From positions 261-8,833 of the forward strand of contig PMBQ01000225.1 in the NCBI GenBank assembly GCA_003152955.1: a stretch of 8,573 nucleotides of DNA, given 5' to 3'. The notes under the pieces are model-generated. The model made no database searches, had not been told where the DNA came from, and saw only the letters and a program-made list of their open reading frames with translations. A program made the position numbers and the translations under genes. This stretch comes from Candidatus Bathyarchaeota archaeon. Lineage in GTDB: Archaea; Thermoproteota; Bathyarchaeia; 40CM-2-53-6; FEN-987. This document shows positions 304-8,573 of this stretch, piece after piece (position 1 is the first letter of the stretch; the number at the start of each line of letters is the position of its first letter).

Positions 304-738
304 CTACCCTACTTCTGTCCAGTTGAAGAGCACTCGTTCCGTGGGAGTGAACTTTTCCACGGCTTCGACCCACGCAGTCAGCATCCCCAAATCAATGGGC
401 TTTTCAAATACCGCGCAGCCTAGGCTGGACGCTCGCGCTCGGTCTGAGTCGGTAAAGACTCCGGACATCAAAGCAAAATACCTTTGCTTGCAGCCTTTAC
501 TTATCAACTCCTCAACAAAGTCGATGCCGTTCCTTCCTGGCATGTTCACATCGGAGATGATTATGTCAGAACATATGGTGCCGATTGGACACGGGCATCT
601 TAAAGAGATATGGAGGGGACACAGGTCAGGATAAGGAAAGGTAAACACCTCATACTTACGTCTATCGAAGAATAGCCACAGCATAGAGCGTACGACCTCA
701 TCATCCTCGAAAATCACCGCGCGCCTTATCACTGCCAA
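304..738 (-). CDS. Single-domain response regulator (CheY-like receiver) with cysteine-rich insertion
   Basis: A 144-residue stand-alone receiver domain. Visible family residues are the acidic pair D12/D13 in FEDDE, the phospho-acceptor D63 in IIISDVNMPG, the switch Ser S92 in ALMSG and the conserved Lys K113 in FEKP. It should be phosphorylated by a histidine kinase, but no kinase or output domain is present here, so its partner is unknown. Between beta-strand 2 and the phospho-acceptor strand it carries a loop longer than usual with four cysteines (C40, C48, C50, C57), which could bind metal or sense redox. The start is uncertain: TTG at 736-738 has an AGGGG 8 nt upstream, and GTG at 730-732 has AAAGG 9 nt upstream. 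The sequence MIRRAVIFEDD from the GTG looks more typical. It is transcribed in the same direction as polB but lies 150 bp beyond its end, so it is probably a separate unit. Confidence 0.87.
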   Translation of the reverse strand: MAVIRRAVIFEDDEVVRSMLWLFFDRRKYEVFTFPYPDLCPLHISLRCPCPIGTICSDIIISDVNMPGRNGIDFVEELISKGCKQRYFALMSGVFTDSDRARASSLGCAVFEKPIDLGMLTAWVEAVEKFTPTERVLFNWTEVG

Positions 739-888: not shown

Positions 889-3855
889 TCATTGACCACC
901 GCGCTCTAGTTCCTCCACCGCCTGAGCAAGCTTTGTCCGCGTTTCAGGGTGAATGCGTTCACTGCGAAAGAAACGATCAATAGCATGTTGCGAGGCTCCA
1001 GACTCGCGCCTGAGTAATTTCTTTGAAAAGCGACTCGCTCTAAGTATCAAAGCTGCATCTGCGGGGCGTGTGTTTGCTGTTTTACGTGGATAATATTTGA
1101 CGGGTCCTGCGTTGTCGAAGACGCTGATATCTTCACCCTCTTGCGATCTTCTCTCAATTTCCTTACCGATCGGGATGAATGGCGTAATAGCTTCAATGGG
1201 ACGGCGCAAGAGAAGCCCCCGCGTATAGACATTACAGAATCCTCCGTCGGGGGAAAGAGATTTGTCTTCTGGATGAAGGAAATGTCGCCAGATAACGCTA
1301 GAAAGAGTCTGTGGCGCGACAGTTTTTCCATGGTATTCGCTTCCCAGGATTACTGTTTCCCCGCTGTGAATCTCTATGTATTCCCTCGTTAACCAGTCTT
1401 CTGGATGTTTGCTGGCAGGCGCAACTAGTGTGCAATCTGGCGTAGGCTGAATCAGTATCGGTGAAAGTGCGAAGTTGTAGGGCTTGGCAACTCCCGGATC
1501 ACGCTTCCTTAAAGCTTTCAAGACATTCGGAGTTGTGATCCTTACTCGCATTACAGCGGGTAAATTGTCAAACCACAATTGGCGTGAGATGAGCGCATTT
1601 TCAAGATCTTTGTCATCTTTGAAATGATCACTTAATAGACGCTCCCACACCTCAACGATCCACCGGGGATAATTGGTGTCGTGATCTTTGCAGTCGGCTG
1701 GCGTGTAACGGCTCCGCTTGTCCGGTACATAAACGATCCCCAATCCATGTTCGCTTGGTTTGATGATTTCCAGGTTATTCATTTTGCGTGTGTAAACGAC
1801 GTAGCGTTTAGCGGATACTGCCAGCCCGTACAGTTGATGCTGGTTCCCCCTGCGGTCGTTATTGCAATCCTCTACCTTCAGAATATCTGTGACGATATTT
1901 AGGTCGTACGGATTCAAGCTGTTGAGCTTCGCGCAAATTTGTTTTACTTGTTTCCATGTGATCGCTTTGACAGCAGGGGTTCCGTCTGGAAAATTGTGTT
2001 GGCCGCCTGGACACGGAAAGAGCCCACCTTTTTTCGACGCTACGAAGAACATCGAATCCGTGTCCGTGAGTAGATACGTTCCGCCCAGATCCTTGGCCAT
2101 ACATTCCAAAATCGTCAATATCAACCGACCACCAGCGGTAATCAACGCGGCTGCTGGAGGAAACTGCCATTTGCCTGGACGTTCAACAACAAAGGTTGTC
2201 TGATCGAACTTGTATTCACCAGAAAACACATCTAATCGCTTGGCATCGTTTTTGCCAAATTCATTCTTATTCAGTTCCGCGAAAATCCCATAGAGCGCAT
2301 TGGCAATGATCTTCAAAAGCAAATAGTGAGGGTGCGACTTCGGAAGGTTTTTTCGTTCCTCTATCACAACGCGAAAGAAGTCGTCTTTCACAGGGTCGAT
2401 TTTCCTGTTACCGATGGTCGTCGGCTTCATGCCTTCTTGCACACTATGCGGAACAATTCGGAATGCTTCGATGATTTGCGGGGAGACCCCTTTCGCAAGC
2501 CTAGATGCAGCTAAATCGGGACCTGCATACCAAATCCGTTCTGTTGAAGTGAGCGGATTCAAGCCGATATTTGTCTCGCCGGACTCGCCATAGAGGGCAC
2601 GAATTGGAAGAATATCGCCCGATGGCTTCACGGAAGCGAAGAATGCAAGACGGGGCCATAGCGATGGATCAAGAATTGTTTGAGTATCGACGCCATTTAG
2701 AATGCTACGCGCCTCTTCGGTACAGTCCTCCACCTCTACATTGGCCGCAATCAATAGGGGCCACAAGCGGAGCAGTCCGGCAACAGACGGATATTCAGAC
2801 GTTGTGTCGCAGACCACAATCGGTACTTCCTCATGCCGAATCCGGATTTCGCTACGACCACCGTAGTAAGCTTGCATACACTTACCCAAAATATGGTCCG
2901 GCAGGTCAAACTTCTGCGATGGTTGCTCAACCTCCATTTTGTCGAGAAACGCTTTTGTGATACTCGCCGCGCTCATGGCTCCTTCGGGCGGAAGGTCTAT
3001 CGGAAATCCGTCATACTCGCGTTTCATGGCATTGAGTAGCGCAACTGTTCGTTCCGTATCGCGCCGACCGTATGCCAACTCCTTCTCTGTAACGCACCCC
3101 GTTGGTTCGTGATCGAATTTTCCTTCAAGCCCAAAAGAGCTAAGGAATCCGTCGAGCGTCATATGCCTATTGCGTAATGCCCATCCTAGGACGGACAGAT
3201 CAAGAAAGCGCCCGCGATAAATCGTACGGTTGTTCGGATCACCCCCACCAAAACTGATAAACGCTGAACGCGAATCCTTTGGTTTCAATCTTAGCTTCGG
3301 CTTGAATTTGTCCGGCTTGCCCTGGTAATTCCAAAACACCATGGACCATCCAGTGTTTTTATTGCGAGCCTCCCGATACTCCAGTGCCAATCGGCTAAGG
3401 TCAAACGGGGCATTAAAGCAAACAATAACCGAGCCAGCCTGAACAGCCGTCCAGAACTCACCGTCTACAAACACTGTACGAGATTGCACGAGGACGTCTT
3501 CTGGGCAGCCGTCTTCTACATCAGCTCTCTGGTTCTTCGCGTATTTCTTAATCAGTTCGATTGATTTCGGATCGAGGAAGTCTGCATACACAAGACCCTC
3601 GCGCTGACAGTAATAGGTGTCTTGCTTTCGCTCACAAAATCGCCACCAGAGAAAATTAAGATCCTGTCGGATATCCGTTGTCGTTTCACAATCGAATACG
3701 AGCGCATAGTTAGCCCATTTTTTTCGTAGCCTTCCCTCGCCTTCTTTGCGCGGTTTCTCATTCCTTACACGCGTGTGAGAGCGAACAAAGACTGGCGTTT
3801 TTTCTGGCGGAACCCTTCTTGGTTGGTGCTTCTCTTCTATAGATTTGTCGAGCAT
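889..3855 (-). CDS. polB: Family B DNA polymerase with 3'-5' exonuclease and C-terminal HTH
   Basis: This 988-residue protein probably replicates the element. The exonuclease domain is complete: Exo I VFDCETTTD (D55, E57), Exo II NAPFD (N148, D152) and Exo III YGRRD (Y262, D266). The polymerase domain shows motif A DTTSEYPS (D350), motif B KIIANALYG (K515, N519, Y522, G523), motif C DTDS (D598, D600) and the downstream SAKRY lysine (K683). All catalytic positions are present, so activity is expected. The last 45 residues (RRESGASQHAIDRFF onwards) resemble a repressor-type HTH, which is unusual in a polymerase. The spacing of about 165 residues between motifs A and B does not settle whether it is protein-primed. 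ATG 3853-3855 is preferred because AGGA lies 9 nt upstream; the in-frame TTG at 3862-3864 abuts that AGGA directly. It starts 11 bp after the HNH stop and is probably co-transcribed with it. Confidence 0.9.
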   Translation of the reverse strand: MLDKSIEEKHQPRRVPPEKTPVFVRSHTRVRNEKPRKEGEGRLRKKWANYALVFDCETTTDIRQDLNFLWWRFCERKQDTYYCQREGLVYADFLDPKSIELIKKYAKNQRADVEDGCPEDVLVQSRTVFVDGEFWTAVQAGSVIVCFNAPFDLSRLALEYREARNKNTGWSMVFWNYQGKPDKFKPKLRLKPKDSRSAFISFGGGDPNNRTIYRGRFLDLSVLGWALRNRHMTLDGFLSSFGLEGKFDHEPTGCVTEKELAYGRRDTERTVALLNAMKREYDGFPIDLPPEGAMSAASITKAFLDKMEVEQPSQKFDLPDHILGKCMQAYYGGRSEIRIRHEEVPIVVCDTTSEYPSVAGLLRLWPLLIAANVEVEDCTEEARSILNGVDTQTILDPSLWPRLAFFASVKPSGDILPIRALYGESGETNIGLNPLTSTERIWYAGPDLAASRLAKGVSPQIIEAFRIVPHSVQEGMKPTTIGNRKIDPVKDDFFRVVIEERKNLPKSHPHYLLLKIIANALYGIFAELNKNEFGKNDAKRLDVFSGEYKFDQTTFVVERPGKWQFPPAAALITAGGRLILTILECMAKDLGGTYLLTDTDSMFFVASKKGGLFPCPGGQHNFPDGTPAVKAITWKQVKQICAKLNSLNPYDLNIVTDILKVEDCNNDRRGNQHQLYGLAVSAKRYVVYTRKMNNLEIIKPSEHGLGIVYVPDKRSRYTPADCKDHDTNYPRWIVEVWERLLSDHFKDDKDLENALISRQLWFDNLPAVMRVRITTPNVLKALRKRDPGVAKPYNFALSPILIQPTPDCTLVAPASKHPEDWLTREYIEIHSGETVILGSEYHGKTVAPQTLSSVIWRHFLHPEDKSLSPDGGFCNVYTRGLLLRRPIEAITPFIPIGKEIERRSQEGEDISVFDNAGPVKYYPRKTANTRPADAALILRASRFSKKLLRRESGASQHAIDRFFRSERIHPETRTKLAQAVEELERGGQ

Positions 3856-3866
3856 CAGTCTCAATC

Positions 3867-4307
3867 CTACCGTTGTGCTGTAACAGGTAAGTTGGACAAT
3901 AATAACGCTTGTGCCTTGCGACGAAGAGAAGCTGCCCTTGCCTGAGAAGCGTCAATAATCAGATTAATTGGAATATTGGGTTCGCGCTGCAATAGTTCTG
4001 CCTGTGAATCCTCATCTTCGGCCAACAACAGCAAGTACCGACAGAGCTGTTCAATCTCTGATTCGGCCACATCGTGCTGGCCATTCTTGGTGAGTTCTTT
4101 GATGTCCCTGCTAGCTTCCAACCTCCGATGGCAATTGCGGCAAACAACCCTTTTGAATTTCACATCCAGTAGGCGGGTAACTGGATGATCTTCTTCGAAA
4201 CAAAACAAATCCGTTTCAGCACAGTAGAAACACCGAGACGGGTTCCCCAACTGCTTACGGCGCATTTCCATGCGCCGAGCCCGCGCGATGGGGTAGGGAT
4301 TCTTCAT
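3867..4307 (-). CDS. HNH endonuclease
   Basis: A 146-residue protein with a compact HNH/zinc-finger nuclease motif. The cysteine pairs C26-F-Y-C29 and C56-R-N-C59 would hold a structural zinc. EEDHP (H41) supplies the first catalytic histidine, and N58 and H60 in CRNCHRRLE supply the rest. The remaining C-terminal half is helical and charged with no recognised domain. HNH nucleases cut DNA using one divalent metal, and casposons often carry one of unknown exact role, perhaps nicking during excision or acting on host DNA. Its ATG overlaps the TGA of the upstream HTH gene in an ATGA (4304-4307), suggesting translational coupling, and polB follows closely. The family assignment is firm; the substrate is unknown. 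Confidence 0.88.
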   Translation of the reverse strand: MKNPYPIARARRMEMRRKQLGNPSRCFYCAETDLFCFEEDHPVTRLLDVKFKRVVCRNCHRRLEASRDIKELTKNGQHDVAESEIEQLCRYLLLLAEDEDSQAELLQREPNIPINLIIDASQARAASLRRKAQALLLSNLPVTAQR

Positions 4308-4900
4308 GCAGCAACGTCTGGGCTCGTGTAAAGGGTATCGAGATGGCCAACTACACCTGCTTGCGCAAGGGAGGAAAGCAGCTTGTAGTCGCTAATCAGT
4401 TCGTGGCCACCAACTTTTTTCCCGCGAAACTGTTCCAAAGCCGATGGGTCATCAATTCCCCGGAGTACGCGAAAAACGATCGCACGGTGGCGACCGGCAA
4501 GTTCGCGTTGCCGGGAACCGCGTGCTGTTACGGTTAGGCTTCCCTCGCGGGTCAAAACCTGTACATCAGCCGAGTATCGGTCGGTAGGCTTAACTCGAAT
4601 GCGCCCGCTCAGTCGATGCTTAATAAGTGCATTGGGTACCAATTTCCGCACTGCTCTCAGAGTGGTTCCCTCAGCCCGCGCCGCCCCGGAGATTGATTTC
4701 GCTTCCCCCCGCCGGACCCGATTGAGGGCAGCAAGAACGCGTACCTTTTCAGCTTGTTCACGCAGAGAAGAACTAGGGTCGGACTTCTTTGCTGGCTTAA
4801 GTGAGCGGGGGCGTGACGGGTGCTTAGCATTCTGCCGCAACACTTGCTTCGAACCCTTTGTATTAGCCTTTTTTCTTCGTCTAATCTTTAATTTTCGCAT
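4304..4900 (-). CDS. Basic HTH DNA-binding protein (probable regulator of the module)
   Basis: A 198-residue protein whose first 45 residues are strongly basic (RRRKK, KHPSRPRSLKPAKK) and probably disordered. A helix-turn-helix follows at about residues 55-90 (SISGAARAEGTTLRAVRKL). The C-terminal part (GSRQRELAGRHRAIVFRVL, ALEQFRGKKV) resembles a conserved but uncharacterised bacterial family that I know only as hypothetical proteins. It is the first gene of the minus-strand arm, directly beside the repeat-rich divergent region, so autoregulation of both arms or binding to element DNA is a reasonable inference. The ATG at 4898-4900 is chosen because CGAGG (4909-4913) sits 8 nt upstream. An in-frame ATG at 4925-4927 would add nine residues but lacks a ribosome binding site. 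The stop overlaps the HNH start by 4 bp. Confidence 0.75.
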   Translation of the reverse strand: MRKLKIRRRKKANTKGSKQVLRQNAKHPSRPRSLKPAKKSDPSSSLREQAEKVRVLAALNRVRRGEAKSISGAARAEGTTLRAVRKLVPNALIKHRLSGRIRVKPTDRYSADVQVLTREGSLTVTARGSRQRELAGRHRAIVFRVLRGIDDPSALEQFRGKKVGGHELISDYKLLSSLAQAGVVGHLDTLYTSPDVAA

Positions 4901-4908
4901 ATAATCAA

Positions 4909-4913
4909 CCTCG
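4909..4913 (-). promoter_or_regulatory. Ribosome binding site deciding the start of the HTH gene
   Basis: On the minus strand CGAGG stands 8 nt before ATG 4898-4900. This favours that ATG over the in-frame one 27 nt upstream, which has only AT-rich sequence before it. Confidence 0.55.
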
Positions 4914-4932
4914 AAGTTGTTTAACATGCGAA

Positions 4933-4948
4933 ATGTAACACATTACAT
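4933..4948. promoter_or_regulatory. Palindromic operator candidate ATGTAA-n4-TTACAT
   Basis: A perfect 6-4-6 inverted repeat (ATGTAA CACA TTACAT) lies in the likely 5' leader of the HTH-HNH-polB arm. Related shorter palindromes occur at 4993-5002 (TGTAATTACA) and 5026-5036 (ATGTA-T-TACAT). A dimeric HTH protein is the kind of factor expected to bind such a site. Confidence 0.45.
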
Positions 4949-4977
4949 ATGAATAGCTTGCAACATACATGGCAAGT

Positions 4978-5008
4978 ATTAAATACATACATTGTAATTA
5001 CATGGCAA
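4978..5008 (-). promoter_or_regulatory. Candidate promoter for the HTH-HNH-polB arm
   Basis: On the minus strand TTGCCA (5003-5008) and TTTAAT (4978-4983) each match the sigma-70 boxes at five of six positions, with a long 19-bp spacer. The -35 box is embedded in the middle TACATGGCAA repeat. This is a by-eye prediction only. Confidence 0.3.
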
Positions 5009-5020
5009 TATATATAGAAT
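4993..5020 (+). promoter_or_regulatory. Candidate promoter for the coiled-coil protein and cas1 arm
   Basis: TTGTAA (4993-4998, four of six matches to the -35 consensus) and TAGAAT (5015-5020, five of six to the -10) are 16 bp apart. They lie 26 bp before the start codon of the first plus-strand gene. The middle TACATGG repeat occupies the spacer, which is a classic operator position. Confidence 0.35.
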
Positions 5021-5045
5021 TGTTTATGTATTACATGGAGATAAC

Positions 5046-6065
5046 ATGAATGGATATATGGATAACACGGCGGACAATTTTATGGCTCTTCTCACCGATG
5101 AGAAGCCAGAGCCTCAACGGGGTCGCCCCATCGCAATCGATGACGGGACACTTTGGGGCGCACGAGATCATCTCGTCTGGCTGTTTGAGGAAACTTGGGC
5201 TGATGTTGGAGAACGGGTTCCCTGGATTAAGAAACCAGCGGATGTTCTCGATGCGATACGGGTCTGGAATGACCCAAACAAATCTTGCAATCAGCATCAC
5301 ATAGCCAAAAGCCTTCTGAGACCATCCTCGACGCCTGCCACCGCCAAGTGGTTGACTGTCACGCGTCGTCAGCTGGGGGAATTGAATAAGGCCGTTCGGA
5401 ATGCATCCGAAGCCCGAGAGGAATGCCGTCGGGCTCTGGAGAAAGCGGAGCGCGCCTTAAGTGATGATTTATCGATGAACGACAAATCAAAAGTTCAAGA
5501 CCAGATATTAAGACGCAGTCAGAAGCTTGCCGCGTCAGAGGCGGAATATTCGGCGATATCGAAACAACTAAATGATGTTCGTGATCTCTTGCTTGATGGC
5601 GAGGCGTCCTTTGCGCGGGATGAATTCGTTCGGTTCTGCAAAAGCAACCGTTATCGGCTAACACCTCTGAACATCGCAAATGCGTTAGCCGGATTACCGC
5701 ACATCGGCTGGAGACAATCGGCCCAAAGATGCAAAAAGCATCCTGCCCCCGGTGCAGATGGTCTATCGATGCAGATTTTCAGGTCTATCGAACGCATCGT
5801 TCGATCTAACGCACGACGGTCCAACCTTGTTGAACATGCCGAACAATGGCTGAAAGACAAGAAAACTAAGAAATCGCTTGGAGTATCGGAGCTGCGGAAG
5901 AAATGGTACTACCTGCGCTGGTCCATCAAAACTGTACTCGAATCGAGTCCACCCGTATCCACGCGAGACCTACCGTTTGCGATAGCGCGAGAGTATTGGA
6001 AGCGTGTCAGTCGGCCCTCGAATGTGGATCTGCTGTTTGAGGAAGAAGAACGCATTGTGAAATAA
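5046..6065 (+). CDS. Uncharacterised coiled-coil protein encoded before cas1
   Basis: A 339-residue protein I cannot assign to a named family. Residues about 105-185 are rich in Ala, Glu, Arg and Lys with heptad-like spacing and probably form a coiled coil. They are followed by a compact, apparently conserved-looking core (YRLTPLNIANALAGLPHIGW, about 203-222) and a basic stretch (WLKDKKTKKSLGVSELRKKW, about 268-287). The C-terminus is acidic (FEEEE). There is no signal peptide or membrane segment, so it should be cytoplasmic, and the basic region may contact DNA. The ATG at 5046 follows GGAG (5037-5040) with 5-nt spacing. The stop is only 40 bp before the cas1 ATG, so the two are probably one operon, suggesting a Cas1 partner or a replication accessory such as a terminal protein. 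Both ideas are inference. Confidence 0.8.
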   Translation: MNGYMDNTADNFMALLTDEKPEPQRGRPIAIDDGTLWGARDHLVWLFEETWADVGERVPWIKKPADVLDAIRVWNDPNKSCNQHHIAKSLLRPSSTPATAKWLTVTRRQLGELNKAVRNASEAREECRRALEKAERALSDDLSMNDKSKVQDQILRRSQKLAASEAEYSAISKQLNDVRDLLLDGEASFARDEFVRFCKSNRYRLTPLNIANALAGLPHIGWRQSAQRCKKHPAPGADGLSMQIFRSIERIVRSNARRSNLVEHAEQWLKDKKTKKSLGVSELRKKWYYLRWSIKTVLESSPPVSTRDLPFAIAREYWKRVSRPSNVDLLFEEEERIVK

Positions 6066-6105
6066 GCCTGGAATTCTCGCACTGTGCTAGGCCTTGGAGG
6101 ACAGT

Positions 6106-7644
6106 ATGGCCTCAATTGATGTATCACTAGCAAACATTCATCCTCGACAAGGGGTAATTACCCTATATGGGTACGGAACTTCCGTCCGCGTTGATCGCGG
6201 ACATCTCATTCTTGAGGACGGGATCGGGACGGACCGCCGACAAGCCCGCTTTCCACGTGTTGGACATGGTCTGCGACGTCTCATCGTGATCGGCTCAGAC
6301 GGCATGGTTTCCTTTGCCGCACTCCGCTGGTTAGCCGATCAGGAAGCGAGCTTTGTAATGCTTGAACGCGATGGCACAGTTCTTACTACGACCGGCCCAG
6401 TTCGATCTTCGGACTCCAAGCTCCGTCGGGCTCAATCCCTCGCCATTTCCAATGGAGCTGCCCTGCGAATCGCGCGGGAGTTAATCGGCAAGAAGCTAGT
6501 TGGACAAGAACAAGTCGCGCGACACAAGCTACTTGATTGTAAAACTGCGGACCTGATTGCACATTTCAAAGCTGATCTACCCAACGCTGACAGCATCTCC
6601 AAAGTTCGACTGATTGAGTCTCAAGCTGCCCGCGCGTATTGGTCAGCATGGAGCACATTACCAATTAACTTCCCTAAGAATGACCTGCCGCGCGTCCCTG
6701 AACATTGGCGTAGTTTCGGAACGCGGGTCTCGCCGTTGACGGGATCACCCAGACTCGCCGCAAATCCGCCGAACGCAATCCTTAATTACCTTTATTGCGT
6801 ATTGGAGTCTGAGGCTCGGCTCGCAGCTGCTGCATTGGGACTTGATCCCGGTTTAGGCGTTCTGCATGTTGATACTCCAGCTCGGGACAGTCTCGCTTGC
6901 GATCTTATGGAGCCGGTTCGCCCGAACGTCGATTCGTACTTGCTGGATTGGATTACAAAACAACCATTGAAGCGGGAGTGGTTCTTCGAACAGAGAGACG
7001 GCAACTGTCGATTGATGGGTCCCTTCGCCGTACGTCTATCTGAAACAGCAGCTATCTGGAGATCGGCGGTTGCTCCGATAGCGGAATGGGCAACTAAACA
7101 ATTCTGGTCAACGACACATAAGCGAACACAGAGCAATTTAGCGCCTACACACTTAACGCAGAGAAACAGACGCAAAGCTAAAGGCATGTCATCGGATAAA
7201 ATCGCGCCAATCGTACCCCAAATAGAAAATCTCTGCCCTGGCTGCGGGAAAATAATCCAGAATAGAAGTGCAAGTTGCTCAGATTGTGCGGTCTGTGACG
7301 CAACCAGGAACATGCTGAATGCTGCACGGATTGGACGTAGGACAGCAAACAGTCCTGAAGCCCGATTAAAACGTTCGAATACTCAGCGTAAGAATGCCTT
7401 AGCACAACATTCGTGGAAGCCATCGGACCAGCCTTCATGGCTCACACCAAAACTGTTCTGGCAGAAAATTCAGCCCCTGCTCTCAAACATTCCAACTTCC
7501 ATTATTCGGTCATCTATCGGAGTCTCCAGATGGTATGCGGGGAATATTCGAAAAGGCTACCGCCCCCATCCGAGGCACTGGGAGGCGCTAGCGCGATTGG
7601 TGGGGATGTCTATCGATCAGAAAACTCAAGCTGATCTTCTGTAA
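6106..7644 (+). CDS. cas1: Solo Cas1 integrase (casposase-like) with C-terminal zinc ribbon and HTH
   Basis: This 512-residue protein is clearly Cas1. After the beta-rich N-terminal domain (about 1-100) comes the helical catalytic domain with the metal-binding residues E171 (ESQAARAYW), H254 (GVLHVD), and D266 and E269 (ACDLMEPVRP). All are present, so DNA integrase activity is expected. Beyond the usual end of Cas1 (about 330 residues) it adds a basic linker, a four-cysteine zinc ribbon (C377, C380, C391, C394) and an HTH-like segment (GVSRWYAGNIRKGYRPHPRH, about 472-491). There is no Cas2 gene or CRISPR array nearby. With PolB and HNH in the divergent arm it most resembles a casposase, which joins element ends to target DNA. 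ATG 6106 is chosen because GGAGG (6096-6100) lies 5 nt upstream; the in-frame TTG at 6094 overlaps that site. Confidence 0.9.
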   Translation: MASIDVSLANIHPRQGVITLYGYGTSVRVDRGHLILEDGIGTDRRQARFPRVGHGLRRLIVIGSDGMVSFAALRWLADQEASFVMLERDGTVLTTTGPVRSSDSKLRRAQSLAISNGAALRIARELIGKKLVGQEQVARHKLLDCKTADLIAHFKADLPNADSISKVRLIESQAARAYWSAWSTLPINFPKNDLPRVPEHWRSFGTRVSPLTGSPRLAANPPNAILNYLYCVLESEARLAAAALGLDPGLGVLHVDTPARDSLACDLMEPVRPNVDSYLLDWITKQPLKREWFFEQRDGNCRLMGPFAVRLSETAAIWRSAVAPIAEWATKQFWSTTHKRTQSNLAPTHLTQRNRRKAKGMSSDKIAPIVPQIENLCPGCGKIIQNRSASCSDCAVCDATRNMLNAARIGRRTANSPEARLKRSNTQRKNALAQHSWKPSDQPSWLTPKLFWQKIQPLLSNIPTSIIRSSIGVSRWYAGNIRKGYRPHPRHWEALARLVGMSIDQKTQADLL

Positions 7645-7698
7645 GACTAATCAGCGATTTGGGAGTACACTGTTTTCGATTTTCCGTTAGGAGGCTCT

Positions 7699-8016
7699 AT
7701 GAAACGACCCCTTTCGGCCCTGTTTCTTACTATAGTTTTACTCTCGCAGATTCTCGTTACCCAAACCCATACTGCCTCAACATCTCAAAACAACTCTGCT
7801 TCCAGCAGCGCGAGTAATCACAACAAGCCGCCGAAACCAAAGTGTACAGACAATGGGACATATGTGAATAGTCAGGGCCAGACGGTCAAACGGCCTGAGA
7901 ACTGCTCCGGGCCCCCAGCTGGAGCGACTGCCCAGTGTCGGGATGGAACGTACAGCTTCAGCAGGAGTCGTCGTGGAACCTGTTCACATCATGGGGGTGT
8001 AGCAAAATGGCTATGA
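7699..8016 (+). CDS. Secreted small DUF3761-type protein
   Basis: A 105-residue protein with a clear N-terminal signal peptide (MKR followed by a hydrophobic run to about residue 20, then TQTHTA), so it should be exported. A low-complexity Ser/Asn linker (about 26-45) follows, and then the C-terminal block ATAQCRDGTYSFSRSRRGTC with SHHGGVAKWL, which is the hallmark of DUF3761, a small exported family of unknown function. Four cysteines in the mature part (in PKCTD, ENCSG, QCRDG and GTCSH) could form two disulfides. Its ATG has a perfect AGGAGG (7689-7694) 4 nt upstream. It starts 54 bp after cas1 on the same strand. Its function does not fit the module, so it is more likely host flank or passenger than a working part. 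Confidence 0.82.
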   Translation: MKRPLSALFLTIVLLSQILVTQTHTASTSQNNSASSSASNHNKPPKPKCTDNGTYVNSQGQTVKRPENCSGPPAGATAQCRDGTYSFSRSRRGTCSHHGGVAKWL

Positions 8017-8031
8017 AGAAGTTCTGGCCGA

Positions 8032-8037
8032 TATAAT
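8032..8037 (+). promoter_or_regulatory. Candidate -10 box for the proteasome-like gene
   Basis: A perfect TATAAT lies about 70 bp before the ATG at 8109, just after the DUF3761 stop. No good -35 box is visible at the right distance, so this remains tentative. Confidence 0.35.
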
Positions 8038-8054
8038 GCGAAATCGCGTTACTG

Positions 8055-8069
8055 TTCGGAGTCTCCGAA
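8055..8069 (+). terminator. Short perfect hairpin between DUF3761 gene and the next gene
   Basis: TTCGGA pairs with TCCGAA around a 3-nt loop, and TCTTAT follows. The stem is short and the following T run is poor, so it is a weak terminator at best. It could instead be a leader hairpin or a palindromic operator for the gene at 8109. Confidence 0.3.
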
Positions 8070-8108
8070 TCTTATGAGCATTTGCCATAATTCTGCGGTG
8101 TTGCTGAC

Positions 8109-8573
8109 ATGACAGCTGAAATCGCAATCATCAACAAGAATGCTGTGGCATTGGCCGCAGATAGCGCCGTTACTTTACGCGATCCAGATAATTCGAAGAT
8201 ATACAACACGGCTAACAAGTTGTTCATGTTGTCGAAATTTGAACCAGTTGGGATCATGGTATTCGGGTCCGCCGAATTCATGTCAGTCCCTTGGGAAACA
8301 ATAATCAAGATGTATCGCGCAGACTTGGGAACTAAGAGTTTTTCGAAGTTAAGCAACTATTCAGAACATTTTTTTCATTTCTTGGAGACGAATGCACTCC
8401 TGTTTTCGGAAGAACGCCAGACAGCGGCGTTCCGGTCTGCAATATCGACGATGTTCAGGAGAATCCGCTGGCAGATAGATGAAGAAGTGAAGTCAGCGAT
8501 TGGAAAAGGCCCTATAACAGACCAGGATGTTGAACAGATATGCAAAAAGAACATTAACGAGTATTACGCTAAC
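8109..8573 (+). CDS. Proteasome-like Ntn-hydrolase family protein, N-terminal part
   Basis: An open frame of 155 codons running off the window end. The N-terminus, MTAEIAIINKNAVALAADSA, closely resembles the first strands of proteasome beta and HslV-type N-terminal nucleophile hydrolases. Removing Met would expose Thr2 as residue 1. D18 then falls exactly at position 17, the conserved Asp of the family (the ADS motif), and K37 in NKLFML is near the expected Lys33 position. Conserved bacterial proteins of this kind are usually annotated as hypothetical; substrate and assembly are unknown to me. The frame upstream is closed by TAA at 8088-8090, so ATG 8109 is the only reasonable start, with a weak GGTG before it. 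It is probably a host gene. Confidence 0.7.
   Translation, partial: MTAEIAIINKNAVALAADSAVTLRDPDNSKIYNTANKLFMLSKFEPVGIMVFGSAEFMSVPWETIIKMYRADLGTKSFSKLSNYSEHFFHFLETNALLFSEERQTAAFRSAISTMFRRIRWQIDEEVKSAIGKGPITDQDVEQICKKNINEYYAN

Follow-up and report, generated by a model that had tools for sequence, protein, structure and literature searches.

A very probable casposon core from a large acidobacterial family whose bounded relatives lie at candidate promoter targets

Casposons, transposons mobilised by a relative of Cas1, have been proposed as the source of the adaptation machinery of CRISPR-Cas systems (CRISPR, clustered regularly interspaced short palindromic repeats), in which Cas1 and Cas2 act together, a short repeat is duplicated at each insertion and growth shows polarity toward a leader. 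This article concerns an 8,573-bp stretch of contig PMBQ01000225.1, hereafter called the window, which is very probably the core of a casposon belonging to a large acidobacterial family. Members of this family share with CRISPR-Cas adaptation the Cas1 family, a short repeat duplicated at each insertion and polarity toward a leader. In contrast, they insert whole elements of 10-17 kb instead of spacers, and Cas2 (PF09827) was found in only one of 20 carrier genomes, mostly drafts, with a model that misses the E. coli control and leaves some Cas2 types uncovered. With 19 bounded copies that show a sharp target and are in places stacked, with cargo that includes defence-like genes, and with CRISPR-Cas genes in one copy, the family provides a bacterial system in which to study target choice in CRISPR-like DNA insertion. 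Two questions become open to experiment: how a leader is read by Cas1 without Cas2, and whether polarised array growth preceded CRISPR.

In gene content the acidobacterial family is close to casposon family 3, the two being compared by description and not by descent. As described in passages of the paper that defines it (Krupovic et al., 2014; PMC4046053), family 3 combines Cas1, a B-family DNA polymerase (PolB), HNH and helix-turn-helix (HTH) proteins with terminal inverted repeats (TIRs) and target-site duplications (TSDs; printed median 15), all of which recur in the acidobacterial family. According to the same passages, the family 3 element AceAut-C1 has zinc-binding and HTH regions at the C-terminus of its Cas1, and two matches below cut-offs hint at such regions in the window Cas1. 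The bacterial casposons named in those passages come from four taxa, none of them acidobacterial, and no promoter target is described there for family 3, whereas promoters are the candidate target of the acidobacterial family. More broadly, no acidobacterial casposon carrier was found in print in the parts of the open-licence literature searched, where the single paper mentioning both casposons and Acidobacteria names the former only in a reference, nor was a promoter target for any casposon in that literature, represented largely by listings and passages.

The casposons of methanogens offer a second comparison. The excerpted description of MetMaz-C1 of Methanosarcina mazei (PMC10359463) gives the same 14-bp TSD and a TIR of the same GGGATA type, beginning GGGATATAGG, and a HTH-like end on Cas1 is noted for methanogen families 2 and 4 in the passages on them (PMC4046053). 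Tandem use of one site, also a feature of the acidobacterial elements, is already in print for M. mazei, as far as the source excerpts go (PMC9939771). On the other hand, the 11 archaeal Cas1 rows form a separate clade, three of them being 25-27% identical to the window Cas1, and the methanogen targets in the printed passages are tRNA-related, in contrast to the candidate promoters of the acidobacterial elements. The target of the A. boonei casposase is also similar in design: the available passages (PMC6614799) describe a 14-bp duplication, a leader motif read together with the leader-TSD border, and a far part of the duplication to much of which the enzyme is indifferent. Unlike that target, the acidobacterial border is TTGAC and the leader contains a -10-like element.

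Core genes, element ends and Cas1 phylogeny

Five core open reading frames (ORFs) of the window are arranged in two divergent arms. On the minus strand lie the genes for PolB (991 aa, 889..3864), for an HNH-like nuclease (3867..4307) and for a conserved small protein (4304..4927), which an earlier model's reading of the letters alone, the sequence-only reading, had labelled HTH-like; on the plus strand lie those for a 339-aa protein (5046..6065) and for the Cas1 integrase, or casposase (6094..7644). That reading had recognised here the gene set of a casposon, with a solo Cas1, PolB, HNH-like and HTH-like genes and one extra gene, and the set proved real, the five ORFs lying where it had placed them. 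The Cas1 identity of 6094..7644 is beyond doubt (PF01867, 1.9e-40); its best solved relatives are 4n06 and casposase 6opm, the latter from M. mazei, and its C-terminus bears a zinc-ribbon-like region (small zinc-finger match, residues 370-396) and an HTH-like region (HTH_3 match, 475-508), both below curated cut-offs. No Cas2 model matched among the eight window ORFs scanned. The Pfam match of PolB is marginal (DNA_pol_B_2, 26.1 bits against a cut-off of 25.8); the protein also matches phrog_1907 (9.9e-12), and a Foldseek search with its structural model, indicative only at a predicted local distance difference test score (pLDDT) of 54, places Pol alpha and archaeal PolB at the top. Short matches of the same model to HTH proteins (50-58 columns, E above 1) probably concern its C-terminal helices, a domain that is itself probably HTH-like.

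Protein searches returned 824 relatives of PolB and 5991 matches to Cas1, CRISPR Cas1 possibly being among the latter. The organism names found among the best 120 matches of each protein, few of which are named, are Candidatus Sulfotelmatobacter, Terriglobales and Acidobacteria. In genome samples, matches to PolB (fragments among them) were found in 7 of 396 from Acidobacteriota and in 50 of 397 from one carrier's order. Phage and plasmid records contained no PolB match, the plasmid records yielding only low-identity, CRISPR-annotated Cas1 matches in five plasmids, and no relatives appeared in the viral contigs searched. Taken together, these matches suggest that the window itself comes from an acidobacterium.

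Further evidence for the casposon assignment comes from the ends of related copies, most of them in draft genomes. From part of the PolB matches, 38 module loci were mapped, of which 26 entered the test of ends (L047, L055, L066, L068, L070, L071, L073, L074 and L076-L079 stood outside it). In genomes G421 and G002, a sequence of 39-42 bp is inverted around the module, occurs exactly twice per assembly, once on each strand, and is immediately followed on the outside by exact 14-bp direct repeats; a third such pair lies on two contig ends of G718. A blind search for TIRs plus duplication recovered an exact 14-bp target duplication at 19 of the 26 loci, at 18 of which the first 24 TIR bases agree at 19 or more positions, the remaining copy (G086b) needing a one-base shift. 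When left and right flanks of different loci were crossed, none of 650 pairs matched, against 18 of the 26 own pairs. The 19 bounded elements span 9,858-17,215 bp, their TIRs start with GGG, and two of them (G430 and G331) lie in genomes that are mostly one long contig. Among ORFs of at least 80 aa, the only families common to all 19 are PolB, the HTH protein and Cas1. Identification as a casposon, which the sequence-only reading had proposed, is well supported by the gene set, seen in the window, and by the TIRs and duplications, seen on its relatives.

The same reading had taken 889-7644 as the extent of the element, an interval that corresponds only to the core of a larger one. In the 19 bounded elements the distance to the TIR is at least 1623 bp from Cas1 and at least 272 bp from PolB, and the window reaches 929 bp beyond the core on the Cas1 side and 888 bp on the PolB side. 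Because the smallest Cas1-to-TIR distance exceeds what the window holds, 7645-8573 most likely lies inside the element. Ends close to the core genes were considered and rejected: a TIR search up to 800 bp from the PolB and Cas1 stops was unconvincing, and the true ends are mostly kilobases away.

A Cas1 tree of 42 proteins, including 10 CRISPR Cas1 rows and 11 archaeal rows taken as casposases by similarity to 6opm, nests the window Cas1 within an acidobacterial clade (support 100/100), nearest to G715 and G435 (99/95), both of them bounded elements. This nesting among the Cas1 proteins of bounded elements argues for the window being a member of the same family. Nine of the 10 CRISPR rows stand apart from the acidobacterial clade (100/98), and the archaeal rows form a clade of their own (100/100), which places the window outside the methanogen casposases. 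A Cas1 inside CRISPR clades with Cas2 elsewhere in the genome, the outcome that the sequence-only reading had named as contrary to its proposal, was not the one obtained, PF09827 Cas2 having been found in one of 20 carrier genomes. As a separate observation, the carrier G001 (contig G001:C30) has an additional CRISPR Cas1, which groups with type I-C and has Cas2 adjacent.

Several observations weigh against this assignment. No TIR is present in the window, which stops inside the element, the best TIR-like match (20 of 36) being no better than those of shuffled sequences (20-22). Seven of the 26 loci gave no TIR/TSD pair, those of G001 and G551 lying on contigs of 10.6 and 15.0 kb. PolB or Cas1 is split in several related copies, and the CRISPR Cas1 4n06 joins the acidobacterial Cas1 clade weakly (91/69). 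Finally, of the evidence expected from site comparison, TIRs with exact duplications were obtained and a clean empty site was not: the joined flanks of the G421 element gave none, because the upstream flank is itself TIR-like, and relatives align across the site.

Candidate promoter targets and stacked copies

Targets were reconstructed by removing the element plus one duplication, and their orientation was set by how closely the TSD resembles CGTTTGAC, with the leader left out of consideration. TTGAC stands at the edge of the TSD in 15 of the 19 targets, and a -10-like TA...T follows 17-18 bp beyond it at 14 of these 15, compared with 59 of all 1950 occurrences of TTGAC across the stretches concerned, the target sites included; overall, the -10-like pattern is present at 16 of the 19 sites. 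The sites are partly non-independent (six valS promoters, two tRNA-Gln and two of a radical-SAM gene), and with one site per target gene (12 sites) TSD+3 to +5 stay strong, these alone exceeding 0.8 bit, with TSD+1 and +2 at 0.78 bit each. Downstream genes are valS (six times), thrS, rplU, a kinase gene and the radical-SAM gene (twice), NCBIfam confirming two valS and one each of the other four and the rest being assigned by like sequence; the tRNA genes are tRNA-Gln (twice) and tRNA-Ala (once), as called by ARAGORN. Either arm may face the promoter, with Cas1 on that side in 11 elements and PolB in 8. The 3' ends of tRNA genes were rejected as the target: tRNA genes lie within 600 bp downstream at only 3 of the 19 sites, and there behind a promoter. 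Judged from these patterns, acidobacterial casposons would target promoters, and their insertion appears to rebuild the promoters of valS, thrS, rplU, tRNA and other genes. The loci L059 and L060, with cores 84% identical over 6.5 kb and unlike cargo, had been considered as standing at unrelated places; this reading was abandoned, because the dissimilar DNA flanking the cores is cargo and both elements face a tRNA-Gln promoter.

Certain sites fit promoter targeting poorly and count against it. G509 has neither TTGAC nor a -10-like match, G476 has TTGTC and no -10-like match, and G002 has TTGACA and no TA...T; G422 (TTGCG) and G235 (TTGAG) are without TTGAC, both having a -10-like match. It is possible, if on the whole doubtful, that the -35 pattern stems from a preference for a short sequence (GTCAA beside a leader) that occurs incidentally in promoters, with no recognition of promoter or RNA polymerase. 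Such a preference would agree with the A. boonei casposase, which in the passages that describe it (PMC6614799) recognises a short motif in the leader together with the border between leader and TSD, and with the restriction of signal above 0.8 bit to TSD+3 to +5 at one site per target gene. However, TTGAC alone appears insufficient, because the -10-like element accompanies it at 14 of the 15 sites compared with 3% of all TTGAC sites.

Some of these sites also appear to be used repeatedly. At the valS promoter, a TIR-like end lies exactly at the expected place in 11 of 19 genomes examined from G421's genus (among L081-L103); one of the 11, G510b, is already counted among the bounded elements. 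Since several of the other eight look empty there, occupancy of this place varies between relatives, and together with the elements found at promoters of different genes this bears out, on relatives, the variable presence that the sequence-only reading had expected. The -35 box of the valS promoter would thus be a casposon hot spot. Next to valS in G086 (G086:C27; L049, L135, L136), three identical 14-bp repeats frame elements of 5.3 and 16.4 kb, the larger of which holds the casposon module; no Cas1 was found in the smaller, which is probably a stacked, non-autonomous casposon. G430 likewise has three identical repeats. Across the 19 bounded loci, a TIR-like sequence abuts the duplication on the far side in nine and on the promoter side in none (threshold 21 of 34; background 99th percentile 20, n = 1547, maximum 33), a polarity that the arrival of new copies beside the promoter would produce.

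A mechanism can be proposed on this basis. Cas1 would join the TIR ends to both target strands 14 bp apart, repair would duplicate those 14 bp, and the polymerase would either copy the element or fill gaps, with the HTH-like and HNH-like proteins perhaps helping in target selection or preparation. Insertion would take place preferentially at a -35 box within a sigma-70-type promoter, just after TTGAC; the downstream gene would keep a whole -35/-10 pair because TTGAC lies within the duplication. A further insertion could then reuse the same promoter, and elements would pile up on its far side as an array. On the evidence at hand, we favour with some reserve the broader proposal that acidobacterial casposons use sigma-70 promoters, mostly of translation genes, as a CRISPR-like leader. 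The 14-bp duplication at the -35 box would rebuild the promoter and push older elements upstream, producing polarised arrays (repeat-element-repeat-element-leader) with the geometry of a CRISPR array, in which transposons replace spacers. As part of the same proposal, the G715 lineage would in addition have acquired a type I-C effector and a genuine CRISPR array, but no Cas2. The G715 element (contig G715:C25, 7578-13468; L065:7578-12400 and L160:1-1068) encodes type I-C Cas5, Cas8c, Cas7 and Cas3 and contains, within its TIRs, a CRISPR array whose six 32-nt repeats are perfect. In the G715 assembly the casposase accounts for the single Cas1 match, and a search for Cas2 with PF09827 found none. 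Compared with the loci collected here, the spacers of the array matched only themselves, apart from one 16-base hit in G331 (L060, L175; E 0.007).

Alternative accounts of the window copy

Even within a mobile family, the window copy itself could be decayed or stranded and no longer mobile, an account that we regard as unlikely, though to be taken seriously. Its ends are out of view, and split PolB or Cas1 in several relatives indicates that decay is common in the family. Against decay, all five core genes of the window have uninterrupted reading frames and their motif residues are preserved: E175, H258 and D270 of Cas1, which we take to be the catalytic triad, do not vary among the 12 Cas1 proteins aligned, a set with two CRISPR Cas1 and three archaeal relatives of casposases, and the exonuclease and polymerase motif residues of PolB are invariant across 32 aligned sequences, the window included. 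The completeness of these residues, which the sequence-only reading had pointed out, was thereby confirmed.

It is very improbable that the TIR-bounded element is moved by another enzyme, with Cas1-PolB as a passenger or in another role. An ORF of the G476 element looks tyrosine-recombinase-like by eye from its sequence alone, and 20 of the 116 listed cargo ORFs were scanned. However, PolB, HTH and Cas1 are the only families present in 19 of 19 elements, no other recombinase family being universal among them (ORFs of at least 80 aa), and an M. mazei casposon is likewise printed, in the passages available, with a 14-bp duplication beside a GGGATA-type TIR (PMC10359463). Lastly, it is exceedingly improbable that the module is what remains of a CRISPR adaptation module, or that its solo Cas1 serves a CRISPR array located far away: the Cas1 domain does match CRISPR Cas1 models and such an array lies within the element of the relative G715, but the separate Cas1 clade, the linkage to PolB and TIRs and the single PF09827 Cas2 among the 20 mostly draft carrier genomes (within the coverage of that model) speak against it.

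Cargo and remaining features of the window

Profile searches covered 20 hand-chosen ORFs among the 116 listed as cargo in related elements, and those 20 include defence-like genes: an HEC-01 pair, GmrSD, Eco57I-type methylases, NACHT and FRG. In the window, probable cargo follows Cas1 on the plus strand in the form of a DUF3761 protein (7699..8016; PF12587, 1.4e-25), a homologue of which (62.5% over 104 aa) lies within the bounded G488 element. The next gene on that strand, an open-ended ORF known from the ORF call (8109..8573), and a response-regulator receiver protein on the minus strand at the other edge (304..738; PF00072, 2e-7) are possible cargo, each with a homologue in none of the 19 bounded elements. 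The receiver gene could also lie outside the element, because the PolB-to-TIR distance can be as short as 272 bp.

The remaining core genes are less firmly characterised. The HNH-like protein has a CxxC / EEDH / CRNCH pattern and a PHROG endonuclease match (E 0.0074), and its homologues, 66-68% identical, occur in two of the 19 bounded elements (G421 and G002). The HTH-like protein has no Pfam match, and its family is present in all 19 by clustering and in 17 by direct blastp. Both labels are weak, suggested by faint profile matches, residue pattern and conserved place. In one relative (P0227), an HNH-like protein is fused ahead of PolB.

Between the divergent arms lies an A+T-rich region (4928..5045) with a putative regulatory role. 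The sequence-only reading was right about the two arms; the repeat-rich centre that it described between them amounts to A+T-rich DNA with a few short repeats around ACATGG and no larger repeat. The extra gene that it noted before cas1 is indeed present, encoding the mostly helical 339-aa protein, at a position where the gene differs from relative to relative, homologues being found at 2 of 24 other loci compared. No solved fold matched the model of this protein (pLDDT 57) at E <= 0.001, and its structural identification was dropped, the model being too poor. At or just behind the PolB stop, the window contains a sequence resembling CACTCATTGACC (876-897), as do L047, L050, L053 and L078, and an Acido-Lenti-1 RNA (Rfam RF01687) at L002:18330-18375 lies near a casposon.

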